A DNA stretch of 64,000 bases from Sinorhizobium mexicanum (GTDB lineage: Bacteria > Pseudomonadota > Alphaproteobacteria > Rhizobiales > Rhizobiaceae). Shown piece after piece: positions 13,924-59,616 of the stretch. The translations under genes were made by a program, and so were the position numbers. Under the pieces are notes generated by a model. That model was not told where the DNA came from. It did no database searches and saw nothing but the letters and a program-made list of their open reading frames with translations. Positions within the stretch are counted from its first letter, which is position 1; each line of letters begins with the position of its first letter. Location of the stretch: positions 1,761,501-1,825,500 of the forward strand of contig NZ_CP041238.1 of the NCBI RefSeq assembly GCF_013488225.1, read 5' to 3'.

Positions 13924-13955
13924 TACTAGATAGACTAATAACATACTCGCAAGTT
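13924..13955. promoter_or_regulatory. tandem TACT boxes upstream of the GMC operon
   Basis: TACTAGATAGAC (13924-13935) and TACTCGCAAGTT (13944-13955) start exactly 20 bp apart. Both keep the left half TACT; the right halves are degenerate. The spacing equals that of the better pairs at 28289/28309 and 35785/35805. The pair lies 60-90 bp before the GMC start. This is a weaker member of the set. Confidence 0.4.
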
Positions 13956-14014
13956 TGTGGCGTATCGTTCGGGCATTTGGCGACGGTAGAGTCGGACTGT
14001 AAGGGGAGCGGTCA

Positions 14015-15679
14015 ATGGATCGGGAGTTCGATTTCATCGTAGTCGGAGGTGGATCGGCAGGGTGCGCTTTAGCCGCGCGCCTGAGCGAGGACTCCAGGGT
14101 CACGGTCCTTCTCATCGAAGCCGGGCCGGATGCCAATCCGTGGCAGGTGCGCATGCCCCTGGCGGTCGACGCTCTTCTCACGTCCACGAAGTATAACTGG
14201 GCATTCGAGTCCGAAGAAGAGGAAGGCCTTGGCGGCCGAAAGATTGCGCATCCCCGTGGCCGCGTGATGGGCGGTTCTTCCGCCATCAACGGCATGGTTT
14301 ACACCCGCGGCAATCCTCAGGATTATGACGAATGGCGCGACGAACACGGATGTACCGGGTGGGGTTACGCGGACGTCCTTCCATACTTCATCCGCATGGA
14401 AAACGCCAAGGGCGGCGACGACCGTTACCGGGGACGCACAGGTCCGCTGAAAGTGACGCGCCCGGTATTCAAGAACCCCTTGAATCATGCGTTTATCGAG
14501 GCTGGCCGTGAAATTGGCTATCCGGTTACCGAGGACTCGAATGGTCCTCAGCACGAAGGTTTCGCGGTAGCAGAACAAACGATTTTCAACGGCGAGCGAA
14601 TTTCTACCGCAGCCGCGTTTCTGACGAAGTCAGTGCGCTCGAGAGCGAATCTCACGATTGCCCCTAAGACCCTCGTGGAAAGGATCGTTCTTGAGGGGCG
14701 TCGCGCGGCTGGAGTTAAATGCCAATCCTCCGGGGCGTCCAAGTTGTTCAGGGCGCGTCGCGAGATCGTTCTATGTGCAGGCGGGGTCGGAAGCCCGCAT
14801 ATACTCAAGCTTTCCGGAATCGGTCCGTCCGACGAGCTCAGGAAGCACGGCATCGCAGTGGTGCACCATTCCAAAGCTGTTGGCGCAAACCTTCAGGATC
14901 ACCTCGACCTGCCGATTCAATATTCCTGCAAGTTGCCAGTCAGCCTCAAGAAGAATACCGAATGGCCGCGAAAGGCGTTCGTAGGCATTGACTGGTTCCT
15001 CACCAAGGGCGGCGTGGCGTCGAGCAATCAGTTCGAAGCAACGGCGTACATTCGCAGCCGCGCCGGGATATCAAAACCGAACCTCAAGTTTGAGTTTTTC
15101 CCGCTCAGCATCTCGCACGATAACTTCAAGCCGTATCCCCAGGAAGCGTTTCAGATCCACTGCACGATCGAAACGTCCTATGCGCGGGGGGAACTTCTCC
15201 TCAAGTCGTCGGATGCCGCCGACGCCCCGGCTCTGCACTTCAACTACCTTTCCGACGACCGCGATATGCAGACCTTCCGCGAGGGCGTCGCGCTCGCTCG
15301 CGAGCTTGTGGCCTCACGTGCCTTCGAGCCCTTCCGTGGAGCGGAGATCGAGCCGGGCCAGGCGGTGAAGAGCAAGGACGCTCTCGACGCCTGGATTCGC
15401 CGGCGCGCGACGACCGCGTTCCATATTTCTGGTACCTGCGCCATGGGACGAGCGGACAACCCCGCAGCCGTTGTCGGCCCGGACCTCAAGGTCCATGGGG
15501 TCGAAGGGCTGAGGGTCGCCGATGCATCCATCATGCCTGTCGTCGTGACGTCCAACCTGAACGCATCGGCGATCATGATCGGGGAACGGGCCGCTGACTT
15601 CTGTCTCGGCCGTCCCCAGCTCAGCCCTTCAAACGAACCCTACTGGGTCCACCCCAACTGGCAGACGAGTCAACGCTGA
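14015..15679 (+). CDS. GMC-family oxidoreductase (choline dehydrogenase-like)
   Basis: A 554-residue FAD alcohol dehydrogenase. The N-terminal Rossmann motif is FIVVGGGSAGCALAARLSE, GMC signature 1 is HPRGRVMGGSSAINGM, and the C-terminal active-site His is in AFHISGTCAMGR with the Asn in NLNASAIMIGERAADF. Family members oxidise choline, other alcohols or amino alcohols, passing electrons to quinone or oxygen. No signal peptide or membrane segment is seen. AAGGGGAG precedes the ATG. It heads an operon with an MDR dehydrogenase and an FAD-linked oxidase. A paralogue is at 39752-41368. Confidence 0.9.
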   Translation: MDREFDFIVVGGGSAGCALAARLSEDSRVTVLLIEAGPDANPWQVRMPLAVDALLTSTKYNWAFESEEEEGLGGRKIAHPRGRVMGGSSAINGMVYTRGNPQDYDEWRDEHGCTGWGYADVLPYFIRMENAKGGDDRYRGRTGPLKVTRPVFKNPLNHAFIEAGREIGYPVTEDSNGPQHEGFAVAEQTIFNGERISTAAAFLTKSVRSRANLTIAPKTLVERIVLEGRRAAGVKCQSSGASKLFRARREIVLCAGGVGSPHILKLSGIGPSDELRKHGIAVVHHSKAVGANLQDHLDLPIQYSCKLPVSLKKNTEWPRKAFVGIDWFLTKGGVASSNQFEATAYIRSRAGISKPNLKFEFFPLSISHDNFKPYPQEAFQIHCTIETSYARGELLLKSSDAADAPALHFNYLSDDRDMQTFREGVALARELVASRAFEPFRGAEIEPGQAVKSKDALDAWIRRRATTAFHISGTCAMGRADNPAAVVGPDLKVHGVEGLRVADASIMPVVVTSNLNASAIMIGERAADFCLGRPQLSPSNEPYWVHPNWQTSQR

Positions 15680-15749
15680 AGTCGCCGCGGAGTGTTCCTT
15701 TTGTGGGCCGCCGCGAGCGAGACCTGATTCCAACATCGAGGACACAGAC

Positions 15750-16880
15750 ATGGATAACAAGCAGGCCATCCCGGAGAAAATGCGCGCTGTACTCCTCACC
15801 GGATTCGGCGGGATCGATAAGCTCCAGTATAGGGAGGACGTGCCCGTACCGCGCGCGGGCAGCGGAGAGGTACTCGTTCGCGTGGGAGCGTGCGGGATGA
15901 ACAACACCGACATCAATCTACGGACGCGCTGGTATGATCGCGACGTGAACGAAAGCCTCTCGGAAGATGTTGGGCTCAAGGGAGCGGGCGATCCCAAGAA
16001 GGCGGACGCTGACACAAGCGGCACCTGGAAAGAAGAGAAGATCGTGTTTCCGCGTATCCAGGGTGCCGCGGTGGTCGGGACTATCGTGGCGGTCGGAGAG
16101 GCCGTGGACGCGTCACGGATTGGCGAACGTGTAATCGTCGATCCGCAGGTCCGTGACCTGTCGCTGCCCGAGCGAGCCCAGTTGGTCGCTTATCTCGGCG
16201 GGGAGCGCGACGGCGGCTATGCCGAATATACGGCGGTGCCCACGGAGAATGCCTACGCCATCGAATCCAACCTCACCGACGCGGAACTCGCGACCTTCCC
16301 GACATCCTACGATACAGCGGAAGAGATGCTCGTTCGCGCCCGCCTCGGCAAGGGCGAAACGGTCGTAATCACCGGAGCCGCGGGCGGCGTCGGCACGGCC
16401 TTGGTCCAGCTTTCCCTTATCCGAGGCGCTACGGTGATCGCTATTGCCGGCGCGGCAAAGGAAGAAAGGCTGAAAGCCTTGGGAGCCCACCATTTTGTCG
16501 CGCGAGAGAACCCCGACGTGCGCGGTGCGATCGAGGCTATCGTAGGCGAGCGGGCAGTGGATGTGGTTGCGGACGTTGTCGGCGGGCCCTTCTTCACAGA
16601 CAGCTTGAAGCTGCTGCGCCGGGGCGGTCGGTATTCCACGGCGGGTGCTATCGCCGGGCCGATCCAGCCGATCGACCTGAGAGACCTGATTTATAAGGAC
16701 CTCGAGCTTTTCGGCATCACGTGCCCTACGCCGGAAACCTTCAAGTCCATTATTGGACACGTAGCCGAGGGACGTCTTAAACCTCTTATCGAGAAGACGT
16801 ACAAGCTCCGCGATCTCGCTGATGCGCAGACCGAACTGGTCAAGCGCAATCACGTGGGCAAGCTCGTCGTCGTTCCGTAA
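15750..16880 (+). CDS. zinc-type alcohol dehydrogenase / quinone-oxidoreductase-like MDR protein
   Basis: A 376-residue medium-chain dehydrogenase/reductase. The N-terminal GroES-like domain contains GEVLVRVGACGMNNTDIN and the Rossmann domain shows VVITGAAGGVGTALVQLS. The structural-zinc cysteine cluster of classic ADHs is not visible, placing it nearer quinone reductase or crotonyl-CoA reductase relatives. An unusual charged stretch (about residues 65-92, rich in D, K, E) sits after the first motif. It likely uses NADPH on a product of the upstream GMC enzyme. Ribosome site GAGG lies 8 nt before the ATG. Confidence 0.85.
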   Translation: MDNKQAIPEKMRAVLLTGFGGIDKLQYREDVPVPRAGSGEVLVRVGACGMNNTDINLRTRWYDRDVNESLSEDVGLKGAGDPKKADADTSGTWKEEKIVFPRIQGAAVVGTIVAVGEAVDASRIGERVIVDPQVRDLSLPERAQLVAYLGGERDGGYAEYTAVPTENAYAIESNLTDAELATFPTSYDTAEEMLVRARLGKGETVVITGAAGGVGTALVQLSLIRGATVIAIAGAAKEERLKALGAHHFVARENPDVRGAIEAIVGERAVDVVADVVGGPFFTDSLKLLRRGGRYSTAGAIAGPIQPIDLRDLIYKDLELFGITCPTPETFKSIIGHVAEGRLKPLIEKTYKLRDLADAQTELVKRNHVGKLVVVP

Positions 16881-16930
16881 GACACCGCCTTCATCGATGG
16901 GCCCCCTACCTAGACCCGAGAATGAGTAAG

Positions 16931-17008
16931 ATGACAGCAATTGATCGGGCCCTCGCGCGTTTGCCTTCGGAAATCGTTGTCCGCGACCAGGATATCGTTG
17001 GAAAGTAA
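16931..17008 (+). pseudogene. 5' fragment of the FAD-linked oxidase gene, cut by IS66
   Basis: The reading frame from the ATG at 16931 (an in-frame ATG at 16922 is also possible) gives MTAIDRALARLPSEIVVRDQ followed by DIVGK, then meets a TAA at 17006-17008 inside the left end of the IS. The same frame resumes after the IS at 19587 with VGKYTTDFRHLYVG. Joining the halves through one copy of the 8-bp duplication restores a 476-residue protein with a normal N-terminus for a 2-hydroxyacid oxidase. The insertion is therefore in codons 23-25 of the gene. Confidence 0.85.
16997..17004. repeat. left target-site duplication GTTGGAAA
   Basis: The 8-bp sequence GTTGGAAA immediately before the IS left end is repeated exactly at 19587-19594. 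Eight bp is the usual duplication length for IS66-family transposition. Confidence 0.95.
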
Positions 17009-17024
17009 GCGCGAATTTCCCCGC
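17005..17024 (+). repeat. IS66 left inverted repeat
   Basis: GTAAGCGCGAATTTCCCCGC, matching the complement of 19567-19586 at 18 of 20 positions. Confidence 0.92.
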
Positions 17025-17054
17025 ACCTTTTGCTGTTGAGTGCTCTGATGCATG

Positions 17055-17082
17055 AGGTGTCCACCAAAATAGGTGGACACCT
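17055..17082 (+). repeat. hairpin just before tnpA
   Basis: Perfect 11-bp inverted repeat (AGGTGTCCACC, 17055-17065; GGTGGACACCT, 17072-17082) with a 6-nt loop, ending 4 nt before the tnpA ATG at 17087. In an RNA read through from outside the IS it would mask the ribosome-binding region, a known way for elements to limit transposase expression. The function is inferred. Confidence 0.7.
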
Positions 17083-17086
17083 TGTG

Positions 17087-17560
17087 ATGGAAGAAGATGA
17101 TCAGAAACTGCAGGTAAGGCTTGTTGGTCGGAACGGGAGACGCCGATACGACCCCGCATCGAAGAACCGTCTTGTCTCGGCCTGCCTTGAGCCTGGCGTG
17201 TCGGTATCGAGGCTTGCGCTCGAACATGGGGTCAATGCGAACCTTCTTCGGAAGTGGATAAAGAAGCGCACGGAGACCCAGTCCCTCCCGCCGTCCTCAT
17301 CACCGTCGTTTATCCCGGTTCAGATTGAAAGCACTTCCGATCGGGCCTTGCTGCGACAGAGCAGCATGGCTGCGGTGGATTTGCCGGGGACTTGCGATGG
17401 AGTGCGTGGGTCGGCATCGAAAAGGGCTGCGCCTTTTTCCTCTCCAGCCAAGGTGAGCGCGTCACTGCCGAACGGGGTGAAGCTGACGCTGGAATGCGGT
17501 GATGTGGATGCGTTGGCAGCGGTCATCGGAGCGTTGGGTCATGTTCACACTGGGCGCTGA
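17087..17560 (+). CDS. tnpA: IS66 accessory protein TnpA
   Basis: A 157-residue protein with an N-terminal helix-turn-helix of the IS66 Orf1/IS3 Orf1 type: RRRYDPASKNRLVSACLEPG followed by VSRLALEHGVNANLLRKWI. The C-terminal half ends with a short conserved segment (LPNGVKLTLECGDVDALAAVI). It probably contacts DNA ends or regulates transposition. Start 17087 fits the conserved N-terminus and follows a hairpin directly. It overlaps tnpB by 20 bp, implying translational coupling. Confidence 0.92.
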   Translation: MEEDDQKLQVRLVGRNGRRRYDPASKNRLVSACLEPGVSVSRLALEHGVNANLLRKWIKKRTETQSLPPSSSPSFIPVQIESTSDRALLRQSSMAAVDLPGTCDGVRGSASKRAAPFSSPAKVSASLPNGVKLTLECGDVDALAAVIGALGHVHTGR

Positions 17561-17894
17561 CCTTCAAGTCTACCTTCACCGCGAGCCGATCGACTTCAGG
17601 GCCGGCATCAACAGCCTTGCGGTGCTGGTTCAGGAGACGATGGCGCTCGATCCGTTTGCGCCGGCGGTTTTTGCGTTCTGCAATCGCCGTCGCGATCGGA
17701 TGAAGCTCTTGTTCTTCGACCGATCCGGCTTTGTGCTGGTTCTGAAGCGGCTGACCGAGGACAAGTTCCGGTGGCCTCGCCGGGAGGCGGCGGTCGTTCA
17801 GCTTACGACCGAGCAATTGCACTGGCTCCTCGACGGCATCGATATCGATGCAATGGTCCGCCATCCGGTGCGGCAATATCAGGTTGCTGGTTGA
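17541..17894 (+). CDS. tnpB: IS66 accessory protein TnpB (Orf2)
   Basis: A 117-residue protein of the IS66 Orf2 family, recognised by VYLHREPIDFRAGINSLAV, the FCNRRRDRMKLLFFDRSGF core and KRLTEDKFRWPR. It is required with TnpA and TnpC for transposition in studied IS66 elements, although its biochemical role is unclear. The start at 17541 overlaps the end of tnpA. Length is standard. Confidence 0.95.
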   Translation: MFTLGADLQVYLHREPIDFRAGINSLAVLVQETMALDPFAPAVFAFCNRRRDRMKLLFFDRSGFVLVLKRLTEDKFRWPRREAAVVQLTTEQLHWLLDGIDIDAMVRHPVRQYQVAG

Positions 17895-17948
17895 GGGCTC
17901 TCGAACTCCGCGGTTGACGCGGCGGCATGCTTTCGATTCAAGAATCTG

Positions 17949-19520
17949 ATGAATCGATCCGGCGAACCGACTGTTGAAGAGCTGATGGCGCGTATTGCTG
18001 CGCTGCAGGCGGAGAACCGCCAGCTCACAGAACGCGTCGTCAAACTCGAGGAAGAGTTGGCGCTTGCACGGCTGCATCGTTTTGCGCCGAAGAGCGAAAA
18101 GCACATTGACCGCCTCTTCAATGAAGCCGAACAGGCCGCGGATGAGGACGATGCCGACAACGAAGATGGCGATGTCGTTGCTCTGCCGGACACGGGCTTG
18201 CCGGCGACCGACGGCACGACGGGAAAGAAGCGCGGCCGCAAGGCCTTGCCGGAAAACCTGCCGCGCGAGCGTGTCGAGTATGACCTTCCCGACGATAAGA
18301 AGGCCTGTCCATGCTGCCGTCACCAGATGCATCGCATGGGCGAGACCGTTACCGAGCAACTTCATATCGAGGTGAAGGCGAAGGTCCTGCAGAATGTGCG
18401 GTTCAAATATGCTTGCCGTCATTGCGACCGCACCGGGATCAACACCCCGGTCGTGATCGCGCCGATGCCCGCGCAGCCCTTGCCGGGCAGCATCGCCACG
18501 GCTTCGACGCTGGCCTTCGCGCTCGTTCATAAGTATGTCGACGGCACACCGCTCTACCGCTTGGCGCAGGCATTCGAGCGCGCAGGTGTTCCTGTCAGCC
18601 GTGGCGCTCTGGGCCACTGGGTGATCGGCTCGAGCGAAAAGCATCTCTCCCGCATCTATAACGCCCTGAAGCTGCGGCTCAGATCGCAGCCCCTCATCCA
18701 TGGCGACGAGACGACTGTTCAGGTCCTAAAGGAAAAGGATCGAGAGGCCGCCAGCACGTCATATATGTGGGCTTACCGAAGCGGCGAGGACAGTGACGAG
18801 CCGATCGTGCTGCTCGATTATCAGCCGGGCCGCGGCCAGATATACCCGCAAACCTTCCTCGGCGATTATCGCGGGATAGTGATGAGTGATGGCTATTCCG
18901 CCTGGCGCACGCTGGATGGGGCAACCCATCTTGGGTGTATGGCCCATTCCAGACGACGCTTTGTCGACGCCCTCAAGGCGAGAAAGAAGGGTGGCGGACC
19001 ACCGGAGCAGGCACTCCGCTTCTTCGAACAGCTCTACCGGATTGAAAGGCAGGCCAGGGACAGAAAACCCGAGGATGGTGAAACGCAGGCCGACTGCATT
19101 CGGCGCTCTCGCCAACAGCACAGCGTGCCCGTCCTGAACGCACTCAAGGCTTGGCTCGACGACATCGCGCCGAAGGTCTTGCCGGACAGCAAGCTCGGCG
19201 ACGCTGTGTCCTACACTCTGAACCAGTGGGACTATCTGACGCGCCACACCGAGGACGGCAGGATGCCGATCGACAACAATCTTCTGGAGCGCGATATCAG
19301 AATTTTTGCAACCGGCAGAAAGAGTTGGCTGTTCAGCGATACCGTTGACGGAGCCAGAGCTAGCGCAGTCATCTATAGCCTGATGCTGACTTGCCGCGCC
19401 TGTGGCGTCGAGCCATTAGCCTGGTTACGCCACGTCCTTACTGAACTGCCTCAGCGCCCTCAGAACGTAGCTATCGACGATCTCCTGCCCTTCAACTTCC
19501 TCAAGGCCGCCGCAGCCTGA
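17949..19520 (+). CDS. tnpC: IS66 family transposase TnpC (DDE)
   Basis: A 523-residue transposase. An N-terminal coiled coil (LQAENRQLTERVVKLEEELA) is followed by a zinc-finger-like CPCCRHQMHRMGETV...CRHCDR region. The catalytic core begins around HGDETTVQVL, continues through GCMAHSRRRFVDA and ends with the acidic residue near NNLLERDIR. The C-terminal PFNFLKAAAA tail is typical. Full length and no internal stop suggest an active enzyme. Confidence 0.96.
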   Translation: MNRSGEPTVEELMARIAALQAENRQLTERVVKLEEELALARLHRFAPKSEKHIDRLFNEAEQAADEDDADNEDGDVVALPDTGLPATDGTTGKKRGRKALPENLPRERVEYDLPDDKKACPCCRHQMHRMGETVTEQLHIEVKAKVLQNVRFKYACRHCDRTGINTPVVIAPMPAQPLPGSIATASTLAFALVHKYVDGTPLYRLAQAFERAGVPVSRGALGHWVIGSSEKHLSRIYNALKLRLRSQPLIHGDETTVQVLKEKDREAASTSYMWAYRSGEDSDEPIVLLDYQPGRGQIYPQTFLGDYRGIVMSDGYSAWRTLDGATHLGCMAHSRRRFVDALKARKKGGGPPEQALRFFEQLYRIERQARDRKPEDGETQADCIRRSRQQHSVPVLNALKAWLDDIAPKVLPDSKLGDAVSYTLNQWDYLTRHTEDGRMPIDNNLLERDIRIFATGRKSWLFSDTVDGARASAVIYSLMLTCRACGVEPLAWLRHVLTELPQRPQNVAIDDLLPFNFLKAAAA

Positions 19521-19566
19521 CCGACGCGTCCGTCTGAAAGCGATCAGTTGCAAGGGCCGTCAACGT

Positions 19567-19586
19567 GCGGGGAAATGAGCGCTTAC
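19567..19586 (-). repeat. IS66 right inverted repeat, carrying an in-frame ATG
   Basis: The complement of this stretch matches the left terminus at 18 of 20 bases. On the plus strand it includes ATGAGCGCTTAC (from 19575), which is in frame with the downstream oxidase remnant. Confidence 0.92.
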
Positions 19587-21001: not shown

Positions 21002-21604
21002 CTAGCTCGCGCGCTTGATCTGCGCCACATTCGCCCGATTGAATATTGCCTCCACCATCTCGTAGCTCAGCGCTTTGGCGTCAGAACTCTCCGGGTTGTC
21101 GAAATACTGGAAACTGCAGCCGTCGACGATCACGAGAAGGGAGCGCGCGATCCTCTCGAGCTCCCACTCGCAGGTGTCACCTGTCATGCGCTGCGCCTCC
21201 GCGAGTACCGAGGTGATCTCGGCGAGATATAGCGGATACATGAACTTCCGGATGCGCTCGCTGTTTCTGACCGCCCAGAGGAACAATTCGAACTGCGCTT
21301 GCGCGTTCTTGGGGACTTTCTCCAGTCCATCCCACCATGCGTCCAACATGCGACGGACTGCCAAGCGAACTCCTACGCCCGTCTGTCGGCGCATCTCATC
21401 GGGCACCATCTCCTTCAGCCAGCGTTCTACCGCCGCGTGAACCAGTTCGTCCTTGTCTTTGAAGCAGTAGTGAACTGCCGCAAGTGACGCGTTCGCCCGC
21501 TTCGCGACCTCGCGCATCGTCACGGACTGGACGCCTTTTTCTCTCATCACGTCGATTGTAGCGTCTACGAGCTGCTCGCGCCGAAGGGCAGATGGAATAC
21601 GCAC
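21002..21604 (-). CDS. TetR/AcrR-family transcriptional regulator
   Basis: A 200-residue repressor. The N-terminal helix-turn-helix is VTMREVAKRANASLAAVHYCF preceded by LRREQLVDATIDVMREKGV. The C-terminal half is helical, with no recognisable ligand motif. It is convergent with the FAD oxidase and divergent from the TorT-like transport operon, with 527 bp between, so its likely targets are itself and that operon. A 21-bp direct repeat in the intergenic region is a candidate binding element. Confidence 0.9.
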   Translation of the reverse strand: MRIPSALRREQLVDATIDVMREKGVQSVTMREVAKRANASLAAVHYCFKDKDELVHAAVERWLKEMVPDEMRRQTGVGVRLAVRRMLDAWWDGLEKVPKNAQAQFELFLWAVRNSERIRKFMYPLYLAEITSVLAEAQRMTGDTCEWELERIARSLLVIVDGCSFQYFDNPESSDAKALSYEMVEAIFNRANVAQIKRAS

Positions 21605-21975: not shown

Positions 21976-22008
21976 TACTCGGCGGTATAAACAGCCGCCG
22001 GAGGAGTA
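21976..22008. promoter_or_regulatory. tandem TACT boxes upstream of the TorT-like operon
   Basis: TACTCGGCGGTA (21976-21987) followed by TATAA-like sequence, and GCCGGAGGAGTA (21997-22008) 21 bp on with only the right half intact. The 21-bp offset is the same as at 56750/56771. Confidence 0.4.
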
Positions 22009-28288: not shown

Positions 28289-28320
28289 TACTGATGGGGA
28301 TGTATGTATACTCATTGGTA
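28289..28320. promoter_or_regulatory. tandem TACT boxes upstream of the aldehyde dehydrogenase
   Basis: TACTGATGGGGA (28289-28300) and TACTCATTGGTA (28309-28320), 20 bp apart. The second box runs directly into TATAAT (28319-28324), a consensus -10 element, so a bound regulator would cover the promoter. Confidence 0.6.
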
Positions 28321-29862: not shown

Positions 29863-30620
29863 TCCCTACTCGCAAATCCGTTAGTTCAGTGCTCCCGTGA
29901 TTGCCGCGCAAAGTAGAACAAACGGGAAGCCGAGGGGTGGTCGTATTGGACATCCAAACCAACGACCCGAAAAGCTCGTTCCCTCGACGGTGTGACTCAG
30001 ACCCATCCATTCCGAACGGACTACAAAAATCGGAGGCAAGGTCTTCATGATGACCACGGAGGTCCCGAGAGACAGGATCGTGACCGCCAAATGCGATCCG
30101 GATAATCTGTGACGCTGCGCGATCTCCGAGCGTTCGTCCCGGCTATCACATGAACAAGATGCATTGGATCTCCATTGCGGCAGGTGAGGAGCATAAATGA
30201 GGATCTGACCGAACGCGTTGCCTCCGACGCCTACAGTCTGATCGCTGGGAAATTGCCTCGAAGCAAGCGACCCACGAAATAGCGTAGGCGTTTGTAACTA
30301 TATCTGGGAGCGCACCCTGACGCCGAAATTCTCACTTTCGAAGGTGCGAGCCACGACCCTCATTGGGAGCATCCCAGATAGGCGGCGGAGGGTATCCTGA
30401 AATTCCTCGCTAGCGAGTGTTTACACTAGCAAACCGCGGTCACGAAAAAAGTGCTCGATCGTCGTTCGTGACGGTCAAGTAATTATACGAAGCCGCTTGA
30501 TTTTCGGTGCAATCTTGTTACAAATTATACGCTATCGTATAATCGTGAACGTACGGGTACGTCGTTGGCCTTGAAACCAGATTGTTTCGTCCCTGCGATC
30601 TTTGAGAACTGAGTCCGCCA
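29863..30620. other. non-coding stretch with several palindromes
   Basis: No convincing gene. A 69-codon minus-strand frame at 29881-30090 has a membrane-like composition but no ribosome site or recognisable family. The right half carries an inverted repeat GTCACGAA/TTCGTGAC (30439-30446 and 30465-30472) and a perfect 20-bp palindrome at 30524-30543, so it looks like a promoter/operator region for the hydratase gene. Confidence 0.6.
30524..30543. promoter_or_regulatory. perfect palindrome ATTATACG-CTAT-CGTATAAT
   Basis: Two 8-bp arms with a 4-bp centre, 78-97 bp before the hydratase start; a related half (AATTATACGA) lies at 30481-30490. It has the form of a dimeric repressor operator and is distinct from the TACT boxes. 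The regulator is unknown. Confidence 0.6.
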
Positions 30621-31382
30621 ATGTCTGTCCTTTTCCAAGTCAAGAATTCGATCGGCGTAGTGACGATCGACCGAGCCGCGAAATTGAACGCGCTCGATCT
30701 CGAGACTTTCCGGAAAATCGAGGAGATCGTGGATAAGGCCAACGACGACCGCGCGGTCCGGGGTCTAATCTTCGCCGCAGCGCCCGGCAGGGCATTCAGC
30801 GCGGGCGCAGACATTAACGACTTGACCGGGTTGTCTCCGGAGGAAGCCGGAAGAAGGGCATCTTATCGTCGGGGCGTATTCCAGAAAATTGCGACAGCCG
30901 ACGTGCCTTCTATAGCGGTTATTAACGGCTTTGCTATGGGCGGCGGCGTGGAGCTGGCTTTGGCCTGCACGTTCCGCTTCGCTACCAGGCAGGCGACCTT
31001 TTCCATGCCTGAAATCAATCTCGGGCTGCTACCGGGAGCGGGCGCTACCCAGCGGTTGCCCCGCCTCATTGGAATGGCCAAGGCCCTCGAAATGATGCTG
31101 ACGGCAAGCAAGGTCGCCGCGGAAGAGGCGCTCCGGTGCGGTCTGGTTGATCGCATTATTGAAGATGTCGAGACCGAGCCATTGAACTTCGCCGTCGGAT
31201 GGCTTCCGTTCAGTCGCTCCGCGATCAAAGGCATAATTGCGGCCGCGCGCGGTTCGGAATTGCCGATGGAAGAAGGCCTCGCTCGGGAAGGAGAAGAGCT
31301 TGCAATGCTCAGTGCCTCTCCAGACGGAATCGAAGGCGTTGCGGCGTTCCTCGAAAAGCGGAGGCCAGCATTCAATCAATAA
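30621..31382 (+). CDS. enoyl-CoA hydratase/isomerase family protein
   Basis: A 253-residue crotonase-fold enzyme. The oxyanion-hole motifs are GRAFSAGADINDL and NGFAMGGGVELALACTFRFA, and the second catalytic acid is in MPEINLGLLPGAGATQRLPR. Both glutamates of classic enoyl-CoA hydratases appear present, unlike the protein at 10070. It stands alone behind a 20-bp palindrome and is followed 212 bp later by a polyamine-type ABC operon, so it is probably a separate transcription unit in fatty-acid or amino-acid breakdown. Confidence 0.9.
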   Translation: MSVLFQVKNSIGVVTIDRAAKLNALDLETFRKIEEIVDKANDDRAVRGLIFAAAPGRAFSAGADINDLTGLSPEEAGRRASYRRGVFQKIATADVPSIAVINGFAMGGGVELALACTFRFATRQATFSMPEINLGLLPGAGATQRLPRLIGMAKALEMMLTASKVAAEEALRCGLVDRIIEDVETEPLNFAVGWLPFSRSAIKGIIAAARGSELPMEEGLAREGEELAMLSASPDGIEGVAAFLEKRRPAFNQ

Positions 31383-35784: not shown

Positions 35785-35816
35785 TACTACTAAGAATGTG
35801 TTTGTACTAATGAGTA
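35785..35816. promoter_or_regulatory. tandem TACT boxes upstream of etfB
   Basis: TACTACTAAGAA (35785-35796) and TACTAATGAGTA (35805-35816), 20 bp apart. The second box differs from a perfect 12-bp palindrome at one base. They lie 72-103 bp before the etfB start. Otherwise the 327 bp from 35561 to 35887 hold only the upstream hairpin. Confidence 0.6.
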
Positions 35817-37594: not shown

Positions 37595-38296
37595 GTGACA
37601 TCTCAGGCGTCGAGGAAACGGAAAGAGGATCTCCTGCTCTGTGAGTTCGGGCCAGTAGCCCCGGGGCCGGAGCCACGAAAGTTCGCTGGCGGCCGGCCGG
37701 CGGACTTGCATGATGTCTTTCTGGCGATGGGCGACATCCTTCTCAAAGAATCCGTTCCGCTCATGGCCAAGTTCACGGCCGGAAAGCTCATCGGTCTTCT
37801 GGATCGGCGAGGGGTCGTCCTCGATATAGCGAAACCCGAGTGCGACACGTCGCTGACCTCCATCGCGTGCGCGATCCTGAGGGACGCCGCCCTTCATTCC
37901 GCCTCCCACAGACGCCTTTCGACCGGACTTCAGTCACTCATCGGCCGATTGAATTGGTATCGGGGTAGGGGCGGGCCATTCGGCAGCGTGAAATTCGAAG
38001 ACAACCACATCCACGCCCTGCTTGCTGGGCCCAGAGCACTTGAACACCGCGAAGACCTGAGGATCGGGCTCACGGTCCTTGGCCCATACACGCGCTTCCC
38101 GGATCATAACCAGTTCCACTCCCGCGTCTTCCTGCCACTCTCAGATGGCGAGTTCCGTTTCGGAGAAGGAGAGTGGGTTCGTGCGGACATCGGTGACGTC
38201 ATGTTCAACGCAGCCGGATATCAGTGTGCAATCCGATGTACGCGAAATCCAATGCTGCTGCTTTGGTGCCAGCTGGAAGCGCCCGAACGGCAGTAA
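37595..38296 (+). CDS. DMSP-lyase-like cupin (DddQ/DddL superfamily), metal site altered
   Basis: A 233-residue protein whose C-terminal half has the pattern of the dimethylsulfoniopropionate-lyase cupin family: NWYRGRGGPFG, NHIHALLAGPRALEHREDLR and GLTVLGPYTRFPDHNQFH, followed by GEFRFGEGEWV. Of the metal residues known from DddQ (two His four apart, a Tyr, a later His), the His pair HNQFH is kept. The Tyr position appears to be Arg and the last His appears to be Gln in AAGYQCAIRC. It may therefore be a lyase variant, bind metal differently, or act as a sensor. The GTG start has GGGAGG upstream. It sits between etfA and adk. Confidence 0.65.
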   Translation: MTSQASRKRKEDLLLCEFGPVAPGPEPRKFAGGRPADLHDVFLAMGDILLKESVPLMAKFTAGKLIGLLDRRGVVLDIAKPECDTSLTSIACAILRDAALHSASHRRLSTGLQSLIGRLNWYRGRGGPFGSVKFEDNHIHALLAGPRALEHREDLRIGLTVLGPYTRFPDHNQFHSRVFLPLSDGEFRFGEGEWVRADIGDVMFNAAGYQCAIRCTRNPMLLLWCQLEAPERQ

Positions 38297-38344: not shown

Positions 38345-38923
38345 ATGCGATTAGTTCTGCTCGGCCCGCCCGGCGCGGGGAAGGGTACCCAAGGCCAAAA
38401 GCTCGCCGAAGCGTTCGGCGTGCCCCAGCTCTCGACTGGCGACATGTTGCGGGCCGCGGTACGCGCCGGAACCGAGATAGGTCTCGCGGCGAAAAGCGTC
38501 ATCGAGTCAGGTGGTCTTGTCGGCGACGACATCGTGATTGGCTGCGTACGGGAGAGGCTTGAACTCGAGGATGCCAAACGGGGCTTCATTCTGGACGGCT
38601 TTCCGCGCACGACCGCACAGGCGGAGGCGCTGGATCGCCTGCTGGCCTCCGACCAGCGCCGATTGACCGCGGTGATCGAGCTGTGCGTGGACGAGGAGCG
38701 CCTGGTGGAACGCATCGAGCGGCGCGCGCAGGAGGCAAGGGAACAGGGCGAAAGCCCTCGTTCTGACGACAACGCCGAGACGATGCGCAAGCGATTGAAG
38801 ACCTACCATGAAAGCACCGCCGCGCTTTCGGAGTTCTACCGGGCGCAAGGTCGGCTCAGCGTCATCGATGGGATGCGGGACATCGACCGGGTGAACTCTG
38901 ACATCTTGGGAGCGCTGTCATGA
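38345..38923 (+). CDS. adk: adenylate kinase, short form
   Basis: A 192-residue adenylate kinase (2 ADP to ATP + AMP). The P-loop is GPPGAGKGT, the AMP site has LSTGDMLRAAV and GFILDGFPRT, and the closing lid region contains RSDDNAETMRKRLKTY. The LID is the short type without a zinc motif. Adenylate kinase is normally encoded in the ribosomal-protein cluster; here it lies in a catabolic operon and overlaps the thioesterase gene by four bases. A role in recycling AMP from AMP-forming CoA ligases is a plausible inference. It is probably a second adk copy. Confidence 0.92.
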   Translation: MRLVLLGPPGAGKGTQGQKLAEAFGVPQLSTGDMLRAAVRAGTEIGLAAKSVIESGGLVGDDIVIGCVRERLELEDAKRGFILDGFPRTTAQAEALDRLLASDQRRLTAVIELCVDEERLVERIERRAQEAREQGESPRSDDNAETMRKRLKTYHESTAALSEFYRAQGRLSVIDGMRDIDRVNSDILGALS

Positions 38924-39420
38924 TCGCGTCCCTGGAGATCGAAGGGGGAGCACCGCTTCGCCTTTGGCGCGGTGTGGTCCTACCAGACTGGCTCGACTAC
39001 AATGGTCATATGACGGAACACCGCTACCTGCAGGCGTTTGGCGAAACCTCGGACGCCCTTTACGGGGCGCTCGGCGTTGACTTCAGCCGGGCCGTCGAGA
39101 GCGCATATTACACGTTGGAAACACACATTCGTCATCGCGCGGAGGCGAAGGTTGACACGCCGCTCTGGAGCGAAACCGAGATTCTGGGGTATGACGAGAA
39201 GCGTCTCCACCTCCACCATACCCTTTTCGATGCCTCCGGAAAGTTGCTTGCCACAGGAGAACATCTGTCGATCCACGTTACGGCTTCCTCGGCGGCTCCA
39301 GCGCCGGAAGCGATGCTCGAGACGATCAAACGGTTGTTCCTGCTTCAAAGAAACCGTCCGTTACCCGATGGAACCGGTTCCGTTCTGAAGAGGCGACTGT
39401 CACATAGCAGGGGCGCATAA
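38920..39420 (+). CDS. hot-dog thioesterase, betainyl-CoA-thioesterase-like
   Basis: A 166-residue single hot-dog domain. The active-site loop is LDYNGHMTEHRYLQAFGET and ESAYYTLETHIRHRAEAK forms the family-typical second helix/strand. The 4-hydroxybenzoyl-CoA thioesterase-like group with DYNGHM includes the betainyl-CoA thioesterase domain of bacterial carnitine breakdown. If that holds, the pathway handles a trimethylammonium or similar acyl-CoA. Carnitine dehydrogenase and the cleavage enzyme are not in the window. It is the last gene of the etf operon. Confidence 0.8.
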   Translation: MIASLEIEGGAPLRLWRGVVLPDWLDYNGHMTEHRYLQAFGETSDALYGALGVDFSRAVESAYYTLETHIRHRAEAKVDTPLWSETEILGYDEKRLHLHHTLFDASGKLLATGEHLSIHVTASSAAPAPEAMLETIKRLFLLQRNRPLPDGTGSVLKRRLSHSRGA

Positions 39421-45974: not shown

Positions 45975-46007
45975 GACGCGCCAGCCCACACTAAGGTTTG
46001 GCGCGTC
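45975..46007. terminator. bidirectional terminator between convergent genes
   Basis: GACGCGCCA (45975-45983) and TGGCGCGTC (45999-46007) form a 9-bp perfect stem between the stops of the binding-protein gene (plus) and the LysR gene (minus). It overlaps the LysR stop. Confidence 0.65.
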
Positions 46008-46944
46008 AATCTCCACTGCTATAGCTGACTTCCGATGAGCACGCTTTCGATTGCGCGACGAGCCATCGCCGAAACGCCTTGGCGGCGCTGCTCAGCCTGA
46101 TTTCTTCCCTCCAGCAAACATGGTAGCCGTTTTCGCCGTCCGTCGAGTGTTCGAAGAGGCGGACCAACCGCCCTTTAGCCAAGTCATCCGCGATCAGCGT
46201 ACTCCTGCAAAGGCCTATCCCCTGGCCGTGCAGCGTCGCTGCAATGGCCATGTGCTGGTCGTGGAGAACGAGCTCATGGCTCAACGGGAAATCCGTTAGT
46301 CCCTGACTGGCGAACCATTGTCTCCAGCAGGAGAGATTCTGATCGTGGATCAGTTGGTGGCGGCGAAGATCTGTTGTTTCGCGCACCTGCCCGTGCCTTT
46401 TCAGGTATTCCGGCGTGCACACCACAATCAGCGACCCGCCGAGGATTTGCTGGCTCATGTACCCCTCCCAAGTGCCGCTTCCGTATCGTATGCGCAGGTC
46501 GGCGGCGTCGTTCGGGGCGGATTCGCCCATCAGGGTGTAACGGAGGTTAACGTTCACGCGCGAGTGCTTCGAGAAAAATTCCGACAGCCGCGGGATGAGC
46601 CAGTGTATGGCGAAAGATGGGAGGCTCGCCACGGTTACGGTGTCCTGCTGTTCGTTCTCGATCAGCGTTTCCGTTCGGTCTCGGACCAGCGCCAAGGCTT
46701 GAGCGACCGCCACGAAGTATTCGCGACCTGCCAGGGTAAGGGAAAGAGAGCGACCGCGTCTTTCGAACAGCTTGATCCCGAGAGCGTCTTCCAACTGTCT
46801 GAGCTGGTGGCTGATGGCGGATTGCGTGATGCACAACTCGAGGGCCGCGTCCTTTGCCGATCCCGTTCTTCCCACGGATTCAAACGCACGGAGGGCATGC
46901 AGGGGAGGTAAGCCTGACCGCAGTTTATGCGGGCCTTGCAACAT
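46006..46944 (-). CDS. LysR-family transcriptional regulator (GcvA-like)
   Basis: A 312-residue regulator. The N-terminal helix-turn-helix is RTGSAKDAALELCITQSAIS with HQLRQLEDALGIKLFERRGR, close to GcvA/AmpR-type LysR proteins. The C-terminal effector domain follows from about residue 100. It lies 53 bp downstream of the aldolase-like gene on the same strand and convergent with a binding-protein gene, so it probably controls the ABC importer. No T-N11-A operator was identified with confidence. Confidence 0.92.
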   Translation of the reverse strand: MLQGPHKLRSGLPPLHALRAFESVGRTGSAKDAALELCITQSAISHQLRQLEDALGIKLFERRGRSLSLTLAGREYFVAVAQALALVRDRTETLIENEQQDTVTVASLPSFAIHWLIPRLSEFFSKHSRVNVNLRYTLMGESAPNDAADLRIRYGSGTWEGYMSQQILGGSLIVVCTPEYLKRHGQVRETTDLRRHQLIHDQNLSCWRQWFASQGLTDFPLSHELVLHDQHMAIAATLHGQGIGLCRSTLIADDLAKGRLVRLFEHSTDGENGYHVCWREEIRLSSAAKAFRRWLVAQSKACSSEVSYSSGD

Positions 46945-53796: not shown

Positions 53797-53826
53797 GCAA
53801 AAACTCCTGGGTAGGATATGTCGGGA

Positions 53827-55488: not shown

Positions 55489-55567
55489 CGATTTCCGATA
55501 AGTTAATGGGCAGACGCCGAAGCGCCTGCCGCCAGAGAGTTGAGCCGCTCAGTCCAAATCAACGTAA

Positions 55568-56686
55568 TTAGTACGAGGTGACGCTCTGCAGCTTGTCGAC
55601 TGCCTCGACGTACTCGTTCAGCATGCGCTCAATTTCGGATTTGACGGTCGTATGCTCGTTCATATCACCGACGGCCTGACCGACAGAATAGGTCCAATAG
55701 TCGAGGTTACGGCCGCGCTCGGCCCGCTTGAAAGGATAGCCGTTCATGATCGACTGCATCGGCCAGTCGAGGGGTTTCGGCGAATCCGGCCGGTGCCATG
55801 CGTCCACATACTTCGTGTAAAGCATCCGGCCCTGCTTGCCCGTCATGGCCTTCGAGAGACGGGCGTCTTCCGAGACGGCCGCGAAAAGCTTTTCGCGCAT
55901 TTCGATGCTCAGGTCGCTTTCAGCGGTTCCAAGCCACAACGAACCCATCCAGACGCCCTGGCAGCCCAGCGCCAGTGCCGCTAGAATCTGTGAGCCGCGC
56001 GTCACACCGCCTGCCGCGAGAACGGGTATACCCTCCGCCGCGTCAACCACCTGCGGCCACAACACCATCGAAGCGATATTCCCGACGCTGCCGCCCGCTT
56101 CCGTTCCTTGCGCGACGAGAACGTCGACGCCGGCCGCCCTCTGTTTGGCGGCATGCTTCGCATTACCGACCAGCGCGCCAACTTTCACGCCCTTGCTGTG
56201 GGCTTCTTTCGTCACCCACTCCGGGGTGACCCCGAGCGCGCCTACGATGAAATTAACCGATTTCCGGCTCAAAACGATTTCAAGCTGCTCGCGGCTCTTC
56301 TTGTGCGTCATCGCCATCTTCCGCGCATACTCCACGAGGTAGGCGTCGCGATCCGCGTCCGAAATGTCGGCGATCCCGGCTTCGTCGAGAAGGTTCTTCA
56401 CGAAGTTCAAGTGTTCCTTGGGGATGAGCTTGCGGTATTCCTCAGGCGTCTTCTCCACGTCCTCGCCGCCGGTGCCGGGGAAGACCAGATCGACCGAGAA
56501 AGGCTTGCCTTCAACGCGCTGCTCGATCCAGTCAAGGGACATCTCGAGTTCTTCCGGCGTCATCCATGCCGCGCCCAAGGACCCCATGCCCCCGGCTTTC
56601 GTAACTGCAGCGACCACGTCGCGGCAGTGCGAGAAGGCAAAAATCGGCAGATCGATACCGAGAGTCTTCGTCAAATCCGTTTGCAA
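55568..56686 (-). CDS. nitronate monooxygenase family protein (NMO/2-nitropropane dioxygenase-like)
   Basis: An FMN TIM-barrel protein of about 372 residues. Features are LPIFAFSHCRDVVAAVTKAG, the FMN segment VDVLVAQGTEAGGSVG and LAAGGVTRGSQILAALALGC. The family oxidises nitronates such as propionate-3-nitronate, but also includes enoyl-reductase-like proteins. The TTG at 56686 is chosen because GGAGGG lies six bases upstream; the in-frame ATG at 56740 would begin only 10 bp from a palindromic operator. It opens the operon NMO-ETFQO-gabT-gabD. Confidence 0.85.
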   Translation of the reverse strand: MQTDLTKTLGIDLPIFAFSHCRDVVAAVTKAGGMGSLGAAWMTPEELEMSLDWIEQRVEGKPFSVDLVFPGTGGEDVEKTPEEYRKLIPKEHLNFVKNLLDEAGIADISDADRDAYLVEYARKMAMTHKKSREQLEIVLSRKSVNFIVGALGVTPEWVTKEAHSKGVKVGALVGNAKHAAKQRAAGVDVLVAQGTEAGGSVGNIASMVLWPQVVDAAEGIPVLAAGGVTRGSQILAALALGCQGVWMGSLWLGTAESDLSIEMREKLFAAVSEDARLSKAMTGKQGRMLYTKYVDAWHRPDSPKPLDWPMQSIMNGYPFKRAERGRNLDYWTYSVGQAVGDMNEHTTVKSEIERMLNEYVEAVDKLQSVTSY

Positions 56687-56749
56687 GTTAAGCCCTCCGA
56701 CGCTTTTCGGGATCCGCCGTTTAAAGTCCACCGGCCCCATGCATTTGTC

Positions 56750-56782
56750 TACTCATGAGTATAAATTACATTATCATCGGTA
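56750..56782. promoter_or_regulatory. tandem TACT boxes between the NMO and SDR operons
   Basis: TACTCATGAGTA (56750-56761) is a perfect 12-bp palindrome and the best copy in the window. TTATCATCGGTA (56771-56782) follows 21 bp on. On the minus strand the first box overlaps TATACT, a good -10 element for the NMO operon. The SDR gene starts 240 bp to the right, so both directions could be controlled. A 64-codon GTG frame at 56825-57019 in this gap has no recognisable family. Confidence 0.65.
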
Positions 56783-57021
56783 TGTTTGTAAAGAGGGGAT
56801 TGCGACGGTGACGCTTTTACCGCCGTGATCGACCATGCGAAAAACAGCAATCATCCCGATGAAGCCATTGCGCAATCCAAGGAGTACTGTATTGTACGCG
56901 CGGGTATGTTGTCGGATTTAGGAGGGGCGACCCCCGTGGTGGTTCCGTCGAAGGCCGATCGCATTCGTTTCAAGGGTCCCTTCGAGTGGACCGATTCTAG
57001 CGCAGCTGAAGGAGCTTGAGC

Positions 57022-57810
57022 ATGTTCGACTTTAAGGGAAAAGTTGTTGTTATTACAGGCGGCGAAACGGGGATAGGTGCCGCAACTGTCGAAGCATTCG
57101 CTCGTGCAGGGGCTGACGTGACGATCGCCGGATACCTGGAAGACAAGGGACAGGAAGTCGTCAGCGCGCTCGCGTCCGAGGGCTTTACGGTCGATTTCAT
57201 CCAGACCGACGTCACGCAGGAAAGCTCGATTAACAACTTCGTTGATGCCGTTACCAGAAAGCACGGCCGTATCGACGTGCTCGTTAACAATGCGTCCATC
57301 TTTGACGGTTTTGCTGGTGCCCTCGATACCTCGAACGCGCTGTGGGACCGCGTCATCGATACAAACCTCCGCGGCACTTTCTACTGCTGCCGTGCGGTCC
57401 TCAAGGACATGGTGGCCCGCGGCGAGGGCCGAATCGTAAACGTCGCTTCAGTCGGCGGTATCATCGGCGGGGCCGACGGTCTGGCATACACGGCTTCGAA
57501 ATTCGGCGTAATCGGTCTGACCCGACAGATGGCCGTGGAATTCACCAAGGCGGGCGTATGGATCAACGCGGTTTGCCCCGGCATGATCCAGACGGACATG
57601 CGTGGAAACTCGGCCCGTATTCTCGGCGGCGATGCCCCGAACATGGCTCGCGGGGTTGGCGTAAATCCCGATGCGCTGAAGCGGGTTCCCGCTGGCCGTA
57701 AGGGCGTTCCGCTGGATATTGCGAACGCCATCATGTTTGCGGCGTCTCCCTACGCTGGCTACATGGCTGGGCACTCGCTCGTAATCGACGCAGGCTGGAC
57801 AATCCAATAA
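57022..57810 (+). CDS. short-chain dehydrogenase/reductase (SDR)
   Basis: A 262-residue classical SDR. The nucleotide motif is VVITGGETGIGAATVEAFA and the structural motif NNAS is present. The catalytic Ser-Tyr-Lys are about Ser143, Tyr156 and Lys160 in NVASVGG and AYTASKFG. The ATG at 57022 has AAGGAG upstream; a TTG at 57016 is also in frame. It likely oxidises or reduces a hydroxyacyl or keto intermediate. It is the first gene right of the divergent TACT-box region. Confidence 0.92.
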   Translation: MFDFKGKVVVITGGETGIGAATVEAFARAGADVTIAGYLEDKGQEVVSALASEGFTVDFIQTDVTQESSINNFVDAVTRKHGRIDVLVNNASIFDGFAGALDTSNALWDRVIDTNLRGTFYCCRAVLKDMVARGEGRIVNVASVGGIIGGADGLAYTASKFGVIGLTRQMAVEFTKAGVWINAVCPGMIQTDMRGNSARILGGDAPNMARGVGVNPDALKRVPAGRKGVPLDIANAIMFAASPYAGYMAGHSLVIDAGWTIQ

Positions 57811-57842
57811 CACTCACGGCCGTCGCCATTGGAAACCGAAAC

Positions 57843-58199
57843 TTGGCTCTCGTTCACGGGGGGCAAGCCGATATGCAGATCTCCGCAATCTGCGGTGACG
57901 GCCGTGTCATCGATCCGCCGGCGAGCGCGTTCTGGGCGGTTCTTTTTCTATTAGCGGAACTGTGTATGCGCGCGGTCGCGCGAGTGACTTCGCTGAAGCG
58001 GTTGGGAATTCAACTGGCCCGAATGGAAGTTCGATTTCCCGACCTATTTCGAAAGGTCGGAACTCCCGTCCCGCGGCGATTCGTCCGTGGCGGCTTTGAG
58101 TCGCCGCACACCTATGTACCGGATGCCAAGGCCGATCAGTCGAGCGTTATCAAGGCAGGCCGCAATACGGGCTTACCCGATAAGGATACTAAGTCATGA
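57843..58199 (+). CDS. hypothetical protein (doubtful)
   Basis: A 118-codon frame with a TTG start (an ATG is at 57873) and no recognisable domain. It contains one hydrophobic patch (FWAVLFLLAELCMRAV) and an Arg-rich remainder, and it overlaps the nitroreductase start by four bases. A CCGACCT/AGGTCGG hairpin (58039-58060) lies within it. The gap of 385 bp between the SDR and nitroreductase genes may equally be non-coding. Confidence 0.25.
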   Translation: MALVHGGQADMQISAICGDGRVIDPPASAFWAVLFLLAELCMRAVARVTSLKRLGIQLARMEVRFPDLFRKVGTPVPRRFVRGGFESPHTYVPDAKADQSSVIKAGRNTGLPDKDTKS

Positions 58200-58912
58200 A
58201 CGAAGTTGTTATGGATCGGACAATGAGCCAGAACGTCTCTACACCGTATGATTCATTGCTATCGGTCGCCAAGGGCCGCTACTCCTGCAGGGCGTTCCAG
58301 AAGAGACCCGTCCCGAGAACCGATATTGACCGGATTTTGGAGGTTGCCCGGACGGCACCGTCGGACTGCAATACGCAACCTGCGAGTATGTTCATCCTGA
58401 GCGGCAGCGCCCTCGAAGCCCTGCGGGCTGAAATGTACGAAGCTGCCGCCACCGGTCGGGAACGTACATCCGACGTGCCCCCGATCGGGACCTATACGGG
58501 GGTTTTCCAGGAACGGCGTCGAGAGTGCGGCTTGTCGCTCTACAATGCGGTCGGTATCCAGAAGGGCGACCGCGAGGCGTCAGGTAGACAGGCGCTTGAA
58601 AACTTCCGTTTCTTCGGTGCGCCGCATCTGGCGGTGGTCACGGTACACAATGATCTGGCAGAGCGCGGCCTGTTCGATACAGGCATCTACCTCGGGCACT
58701 TCCTGCTCGCAGCGCAGGCGCTCGGAGTCGCGGCAGTTCCGCAAGGCGCGATCGCGCATTATGCGGACGTTATCCGTAGACACGCTCCGATTGCTCCCGA
58801 GCTTCGTGTGGTTTGCGGCGTGTCGTTCGGCTACGAGGTCAAAGATCACGCAGCCAACAGCTTCCGCACGGATCGCGTCGAAATCGCTGACAGCGTTGTA
58901 TTCGTTGATTGA
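58196..58912 (+). CDS. nitroreductase family protein
   Basis: A 238-residue FMN nitroreductase-fold protein. RYSCRAFQKRPVPRTDIDRI and ARTAPSDCNTQPA carry the usual FMN-binding Arg and Ser/Asn residues, while LGVAAVPQGAIAHYADVI and VVCGVSFGYE form the C-terminal half. It uses NAD(P)H to reduce nitro groups, quinones or enones. With an NMO-like gene on the other side of the operator region, nitro-compound metabolism is possible, but the family is too broad to be sure. Confidence 0.9.
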   Translation: MNEVVMDRTMSQNVSTPYDSLLSVAKGRYSCRAFQKRPVPRTDIDRILEVARTAPSDCNTQPASMFILSGSALEALRAEMYEAAATGRERTSDVPPIGTYTGVFQERRRECGLSLYNAVGIQKGDREASGRQALENFRFFGAPHLAVVTVHNDLAERGLFDTGIYLGHFLLAAQALGVAAVPQGAIAHYADVIRRHAPIAPELRVVCGVSFGYEVKDHAANSFRTDRVEIADSVVFVD

Positions 58913-58939
58913 AAAGGGAAGGGGGCGGACGCCGCGGCG

Positions 58940-59578
58940 TCACGCTCCCCGCGCGACGCCCTTGATGAGCTGGTCCGCGAATGCGGACGCGACGTCTTCT
59001 GCACTATACTTAGACGATCTGCGGAACCACGTGTATGGCCAATTGCAAGCGCCGATAACGCAGCAAACAGCGAGGAAGGGGTCCGTTTCACGAAACTCCT
59101 TGGACGCGATGCCCTGCGAATACAGGTCCTGAATCTGCTTGTTGTATTTCCGACGATTAGACGTAACCGCGGCGCGCTGCTCCTCGGTCAGCTCGTTTTC
59201 GTCGCGGTTGTAGATCGTTGACCAATCCTGGTGTTCCATCACGTTGAGCGAGTGCATCTTGACGATCTTCGCAAGTAGCTCCGTGGGAGTTCCACCGGAA
59301 CTCAGCGCTTCTTCCAGACCCTTCGCGTAGGTATGGTCGATCTTCTCGAAAATCCTCCAAAGGATCTCGTTCTTGTTTTTCATATAGTAATAGACGATGG
59401 ATTTGGTGAAACCCATTTCAGCGCTAATATCGTCAACGGTAACGGCGCGGAAGCCACGCGCTGCGATCAACCGGGCGGCAGCGTCGAGAATCTCCTCTTG
59501 GATCAACTCGGTTTTCTGCTGCTTAATTCTGCCCCGGATATTCGGCTTCGAAGACTCTTGCGGTGCGTCCATGTCCAT
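58940..59578 (-). CDS. TetR/AcrR-family regulator, acyl-CoA-responsive type (KstR2/PsrA-like)
   Basis: A 212-residue repressor. Helix-turn-helix: VTVDDISAEMGFTKSIVYYY after EEILDAAARLIAARGFRA. The C-terminal domain ends in CCVIGACNWPYTWFR and SAEDVASAFADQLIKGV, a pattern seen in KstR2/PsrA-like regulators whose known ligands are acyl-CoAs. The gene is preceded within 40 bp by two TACT-type boxes, so it is the best candidate for the protein that binds the boxes found across the window. The assignment of regulator to boxes is inferred. Confidence 0.9.
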   Translation of the reverse strand: MDMDAPQESSKPNIRGRIKQQKTELIQEEILDAAARLIAARGFRAVTVDDISAEMGFTKSIVYYYMKNKNEILWRIFEKIDHTYAKGLEEALSSGGTPTELLAKIVKMHSLNVMEHQDWSTIYNRDENELTEEQRAAVTSNRRKYNKQIQDLYSQGIASKEFRETDPFLAVCCVIGACNWPYTWFRRSSKYSAEDVASAFADQLIKGVARGA

Positions 59579-59584
59579 CAGGTG

Positions 59585-59616
59585 CCTCTATGAGTATGTT
59601 TTCGTTCTTTACGGTA
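59585..59616. promoter_or_regulatory. tandem degenerate TACT boxes upstream of tetR
   Basis: CCTCTATGAGTA (59585-59596) and TTCTTTACGGTA (59605-59616), 20 bp apart, each with an intact right half. They begin 7 bp from the tetR start codon on the minus strand and overlap a possible -10 (TATACC). This suggests autorepression with weaker sites. Confidence 0.45.

Follow-up and report, generated by a model that had tools for sequence, protein, structure and literature searches.

Tandem 12-bp palindromes in a rhizobial catabolic island as predicted operators of its TetR-family regulator

The window analysed here, a stretch of 64,000 nucleotides from Sinorhizobium mexicanum (contig NZ_CP041238.1, positions 1,761,501 to 1,825,500), covers much of a catabolic island in which a 12-bp box, TACT-N4-RGTA, occurs in tandem pairs upstream of several operons and of a gene for a TetR-family regulator, the candidate binder of the boxes (58940-59578, minus strand). 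A preliminary description of the window listed six such pairs; all 12 boxes are found where it placed them, with matches at between 4 and all 8 of the defined bases, and the spacing is, as claimed, 20 bp in four pairs and 21 bp in two. The predicted operator pairs precede, on the plus strand, the GMC operon (13924..13955, spacing 20) and the TorT-BisC operon (21976..22008, spacing 21), with three mismatches each, aldehyde dehydrogenase (ALDH; 28289..28320, spacing 20, 1 mismatch in 16), and the operon with the etf, DMSP-lyase-like and adenylate kinase genes (35785..35816, spacing 20, 1 mismatch); on the minus strand, they precede the NMO operon (56750..56782, spacing 21, 2 mismatches) and, as a putative autoregulatory pair, the tetR gene (59585..59616, spacing 20, score 12/16). 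Two mismatches at most are seen in just three of these six pairs (28289, 35785 and 56750). Exact TACT-N4-AGTA cores are present at 56750 and 35805, and the box at 56750, TACTCATGAGTA, is indeed a perfect palindrome. In the gap between the NMO and SDR operons, the pair 56750/56771 lies near NMO, on the minus strand, as described; a second pair in the same gap, 56875/56895 (56875..56906, plus strand, spacing 20, 3 mismatches), which faces the SDR operon, had been overlooked. The single box at the start of the Rieske gene (6576..6587, plus strand) is near-perfect, as reported, and its membership in the regulon is doubtful: its partner matches 4/8 at best, and the R. leguminosarum orthologue has no upstream pair. 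Shortly 5' of this box, there is a 15-bp dyad, AACTGTA-C-TACAGTT (6555-6569). A different perfect dyad, ATTATACG-CTAT-CGTATAAT (30524-30543), which is not a TACT box, is located about 80 bp 5' of the enoyl-CoA hydratase gene at 30621.

A scan of the window for two copies of TACY-N4-RGTA with a score of at least 13/16 finds 7 pairs at 20-21 bp, against a mean of 1.08 (standard deviation 1.06, maximum 7) in 500 block shuffles and an average of 0.74 at other spacings. One of the 7, at 39341, falls within a coding sequence and is probably a chance match. Because at least one of the 500 shuffles reached the observed count, the window evidence alone is only moderately significant, and the strong evidence for the boxes and their pairing comes from outside the window. 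When the 7.14 Mb genome is scanned with consensus patterns, the exact box is found at 29 distinct sites, 10 of them within 75 kb (C1:1768076-1843259). Ten pairs have no more than two mismatches, four of them spaced by 20 bp and six by 21 bp; every one maps inside 54 kb (C1:1789789-1843290), and 7 of these are just downstream of the window end and therefore had no part in defining the motif. The regulon extent of 46 kb originally proposed is thus an underestimate: the boxes are present across that span and continue for about 18 kb past the window, where triple arrays are found as well (e.g., window-equivalent positions 75642/75663/75684). The 38-kb stretches flanking on either side contain no pair scoring 13 or higher at 20-21 bp, and no pairs were detected in 60 kb of the same genome beside the island, scanned alongside the distant TetR loci considered below. 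Both the boxes and their arrangement in pairs at 20-21 bp are genuine.

Pairs of this kind are also found in related islands. The stretches analysed come from Ensifer adhaerens SD006, Rhizobium mesoamericanum, R. leguminosarum WSM2304 (plasmid pRLG203) and R. etli Mim1 (plasmid pRetMIM1e), together with 17 kb of a Rubellimicrobium metagenome-assembled genome; the R. altiplani stretch, a near-duplicate of that of R. mesoamericanum, was dropped from the counts. Seven of the TetR loci were taken from the genome collection and three from plasmids. Among pairs with at most two mismatches, 8/11 in E. adhaerens SD006 and 6/8 in R. mesoamericanum are on the TetR-bearing stretch, and a scan with the 21-bp pattern of eight genomes of the same genus, all lacking a TetR match at E<=1e-40, yields one such pair in total. 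Beside the exact boxes of six sets (40 sites), a partner matching at least 6/8 is seen on 13/80 sides at 20 bp and on 13/80 at 21 bp; the same count at offsets 12-19 and 22-60 is 0 to 5/80, the maximum of 5, at offset 41, being consistent with triple arrays. Likewise, with a score of at least 13 required, spacing 20 yields 36 pairs and spacing 21 yields 49, compared with 1 to 15 at other spacings. The pairs are mostly located between annotated genes, 16/19 in R. leguminosarum (unannotated fraction 0.170) and 11/12 in R. etli (0.231), counts for which the plasmid gene table is incomplete and one R. leguminosarum pair that falls within the SDR gene (island position 61678) was left unadjusted.

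Conservation extends to individual promoters. When the best pair is sought in the 350 bp upstream of orthologues, the same promoters carry pairs in the S. mexicanum island and in the four rhizobial ones. In 5/5 islands, a 20-spaced pair precedes ALDH, ETF, SDR and tetR, and a 21-spaced pair precedes NMO and the citryl-CoA lyase. The ABC transporter has spacing 21 in the 3/3 islands with a close orthologue, the isopropylmalate-dehydrogenase-like gene in 2/2, and TorT in 2/2 (S. mexicanum and E. adhaerens); TorT has no match in the other islands, and in R. leguminosarum a 20-spaced pair accompanies bisC. The GMC pair has spacing 20 in 4/5 (S. mexicanum, E. adhaerens SD006, R. mesoamericanum and R. 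etli). The pair at tetR scores just 12/16 and therefore rests on conservation: six aligned genomes, Rubellimicrobium among them, share unchanged TAC and TACT cores at spacing 20. Among the negative controls, the best pair is at most 11 for both ETFb2 (63418) and the AMP ligase (10764); for the ABC substrate-binding protein (31547), it is 12/16 at 23 bp in S. mexicanum, and R. etli has two weak pairs, scoring 12, at 21 bp; and for GMC2 (39665), it is 13 at 21 bp in S. mexicanum, within coding sequence.

The protein encoded at 58940-59578 belongs to the TetR family, with an N-terminal helix-turn-helix domain (TetR_N, E 4.8e-13) and a helical C-terminal domain (TetR_C_24, E 9.4e-27), and its model is nearly all-helical (predicted local distance difference test score, pLDDT, 90.8). 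The nearest folds are KstR2, a Rhodococcus TetR protein (3him), AibR with isovaleryl-CoA, PfmR and DarR, with FadR also near; KstR2, AibR and FadR are of the acyl-CoA-responsive type, a likeness seen at the level of the fold. Matches at E<=1e-40 are rare (2/120 relatives, 2/394 family, 3/397 order and 1/385 class genomes, the S. mexicanum genome being among the matches), and none is found in the 20 same-genus genomes listed. The regulator is encoded in 7/7 island stretches, with 65-87% identity in six relatives, so that the boxes and this gene co-occur, and it is the only one of the four regulators of the window examined that is encoded in all compared islands.

These observations are best compatible with the boxes serving as operators for a TetR-family repressor encoded by the island itself, with paired dimers blocking the promoters, a reading that we consider highly likely. 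Each 12-bp palindrome (in extended form, approximately YRTACY-NATN-RGTAYR) would bind one TetR dimer; neighbouring dimers, two or in some cases three, would be aligned along one face of the helix at intervals of 20-21 bp; and, in this position, they would block the promoters of the catabolic island, which spans at least 75 kb, as well as that of tetR itself. A pathway intermediate, most likely a CoA thioester in view of the genes for CoA ligases, hydratases and ETFs in the island, would release the dimers. The sequences themselves establish the boxes, their spacing and clustering, their conservation with promoter-specific spacing and their co-occurrence with this TetR gene; binding by the TetR protein, repression, contact between dimers and the inducer are what we infer from this arrangement.

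A number of observations weigh against this interpretation. The genome as a whole shows no excess of the motif: the reversed-pattern control is commoner both for the box (20+17, vs 96+90 for the control) and for the pairs (23 vs 89 and 29 vs 154), so that the motif is special by location, not by number. At three mismatches, the background rises, and the island accounts for 2/19 further pairs at 20 bp and, within it or no more than 8 kb away, for 8/23 at 21 bp among the matches listed. The rhizobial islands are related rather than independent. Pairs at other spacings are mostly intergenic, too (48/79 and 31/41 in R. leguminosarum and R. etli, respectively), and the placement of the pairs between genes is accordingly weak evidence alone. 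The spacing also varies or is outscored at several promoters: the R. leguminosarum GMC promoter has a weak 21-spaced pair (11/16), and the Rubellimicrobium GMC gene (63% identity) has no pair upstream; the boxes of the deacetylase pair are 21 bp apart in four islands but 20 bp apart in R. leguminosarum; an extra 18-spaced box outscores spacing 20 at ALDH in R. mesoamericanum and R. etli; a 16-spaced combination outscores spacing 21 at TorT in E. adhaerens; and spacing 14 ties with or outscores 21 at the citryl-CoA lyase in S. mexicanum and Ensifer.

The remaining difficulties come from the comparison with DarR, a TetR-family protein of Mycobacterium and Rhodococcus. The regulator at 58940-59578, singled out in the preliminary description, is still the best candidate binder; the accompanying remark that no operator of this form has been described is superseded, given that DarR binds ATACT-N4-AGTAT, with the same 12-bp core (PMC10636190). 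According to that report, Lys44 and Gly45 of DarR read TXC in this operator, and the authors state that a residue other than Gly45 would prevent interaction with DNA (PMC10636190). The operators examined here have a DarR-like form, with exact TACT-N4-AGTA cores at the two positions given above and a purine preferred before TAC, and the recognition helix of the island regulator resembles that of DarR; in the alignment, however, the TKG of DarR corresponds to TKS, Gly45 being replaced by Ser60 in this protein and in all aligned members. A TXC half-site shifted by 3 bp, a geometry that is our own reading of the optimised DarR operator (PMC10636190), is not enriched: C occupies the shifted position in 7-14% of cases, and A/G are preferred. 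The replacement of Gly45 by Ser, together with the lack of enrichment of the shifted half-site, argues that the island regulator is not a DarR orthologue. The two systems also appear to differ in architecture, two DarR dimers sharing one 20-bp site whereas here there are two or three separate boxes 20-21 bp apart, and in scope, DarR, as described there, having three known targets and cyclic-nucleotide effectors, unlike a catabolic island. Since DarR answers to cyclic nucleotides, the effector of the island regulator is not readable from kinship.

A more far-reaching proposal is that two or three dimers of the regulator assemble in a regular array, two helical turns apart, in which the layout itself is recognised, the spacing being evolutionarily fixed at most promoters, at 20 or 21 bp, and outlasting the letters of the box; this we put forward tentatively, as somewhat short of an even bet. 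Distant TetR homologues, with 36-44% identity (loci L027-L029, L034 and L049-L051), bear on this point. The three Pseudomonas loci among them, L027, L028 and L029 (41-43%), contain 0, 1 and 2 exact boxes, respectively, and the original box at a threshold of 12/16 yields 3, 11 and 10 pairs at spacing 21, against means of 1.81, 3.83 and 3.40 elsewhere. With the relaxed box [TG]AC[CT]-N4-[AG]GT[CA], the count for the three loci together is 18 at 21 bp and a single pair at 20, compared with a mean of 2.36 at other spacings, although another spacing reached 12, some matches overlap, and L028 and L029 are homologous. The TACC/GACC-N4-GGTC boxes of Pseudomonas at exactly 21 bp might thus indicate, suggestively at best, that the spacing outlives the letters of the box. 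The pairs at 20 and 21 bp in the other loci (2 and 3 in L034, 1 and 1 in L049, 0 and 2 in L050, 0 and 3 in L051) are too few to judge.

Alternatively, the boxes could be separate, independent sites, with the 20-21 bp spacing resulting from promoter geometry rather than from contact between dimers. Several boxes overlap -10-like hexamers, a likeness that is partly built into the box sequence, and the second boxes are often weak, with 4-6/8 matches, which favours this explanation; the spacing, however, is unchanged in triples and at start-codon distances that vary from -38 (tetR) to -166 (citryl-CoA lyase), and, to the limited extent noted above, the spacing of 21 recurs in the Pseudomonas relatives despite the drifted box letters, all of which makes independent sites rather doubtful. 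It is improbable that a single box holds an overlapping dimer-of-dimers, with the second box accessory: DarR, whose core sequence is identical, occupies its 20-bp site as two interacting dimers (PMC10636190), but the shifted TXC half-site that such an arrangement would call for is not enriched. It is also quite unlikely that the boxes are bound by a different regulator, with the TetR protein at 58940-59578 acting otherwise, be it the second TetR protein (21002-21604), the GntR-FCD protein (12673-13395), the LysR protein (46006-46944) or one encoded elsewhere. The genes for the first three are within the window, TetR- and GntR-type proteins bind palindromes, and the second TetR and GntR are retained in one relative each, with matches in 2/7 stretches (S. 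mexicanum plus E. adhaerens and, as a close match, S. mexicanum plus R. leguminosarum, respectively). The LysR protein has no match above 30% outside its own island among the seven stretches, and, in a search confined to these stretches, those of R. etli and R. mesoamericanum have the pairs without the second TetR, GntR or a close LysR; the regulator at 58940-59578 is present throughout and has a conserved pair at its own promoter. The second TetR gene is just 5' of the TorT operon, and its counterpart in E. adhaerens, at 78% identity, is the only one among the six relatives. Finally, the idea that the pattern is a chance product of AT-rich promoters, for all that a shuffle matched the window count and the reversed pattern is commoner in the genome, can practically be dismissed given the genome-wide clustering, the out-of-window sites, the conservation and the spacing peak.

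The box itself and tandem TetR operators as such are already known. MbdR of Azoarcus sp. CIB, a CoA-thioester-responsive TetR-family repressor of a catabolic cluster that recognises ATAC-N10-GTAT (PMC4424350), is similar in its ATAC/GTAT half-sites, in having several predicted operators before its own gene and in its inducer; its half-sites are 10 bp apart, compared with 6 here, and the accessible description contains no regular two-turn tandem (PMC4424350). FadRSa, a TetR-family repressor from the archaeon Sulfolobus, acts on a 30-kb cluster from few sites and binds some operators as a cooperative dimer-of-dimers; it differs in having four sites, with no two-turn pairs in the accessible description (PMC6449355). 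Multiple palindromes per promoter are bound by TetR-family dimers in the cases of TetR (tetO1/tetO2) and PA3973, where the palindromes are 11 bp apart (PMC9736018), and SCO7222 dimers bind three repeats in one promoter (PMC3511530); for none of the three do the accessible descriptions include an island-wide, spacing-conserved series (PMC9736018, PMC3511530). AtuR, considered for its two 13-bp inverted repeats, is represented here by a citation alone and was not used. The literature on paired or tandem TetR operators yields none of this form among the matches listed. What is new is the two-turn tandem, sometimes triple, layout, the promoter-specific spacing and the use of this arrangement across a catabolic island.

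As regards the contents of the island, the etf genes are followed by a cupin of the DMSP-lyase family (37595-38296, PF16867), an adenylate kinase paralogue (38345-38923) and a thioesterase, and the annotations of R. leguminosarum and R. etli show the same order. An IS66-type transposase (17949-19520) is found amid the genes of the GMC region. The homologous islands of R. leguminosarum and R. etli (loci L032 on pRLG203 and L033 on pRetMIM1e) reside on plasmids typed as conjugative, which, together with the lack of the TetR gene in the 20 same-genus genomes listed, suggests that the island has spread horizontally. Taken as a predicted regulon, the set of pairs names a likely master repressor and its operator and would make the regulation of a large rhizobial catabolic island checkable; it may also provide a natural series of promoters for studying how the spacing of adjacent TetR dimers controls repression.

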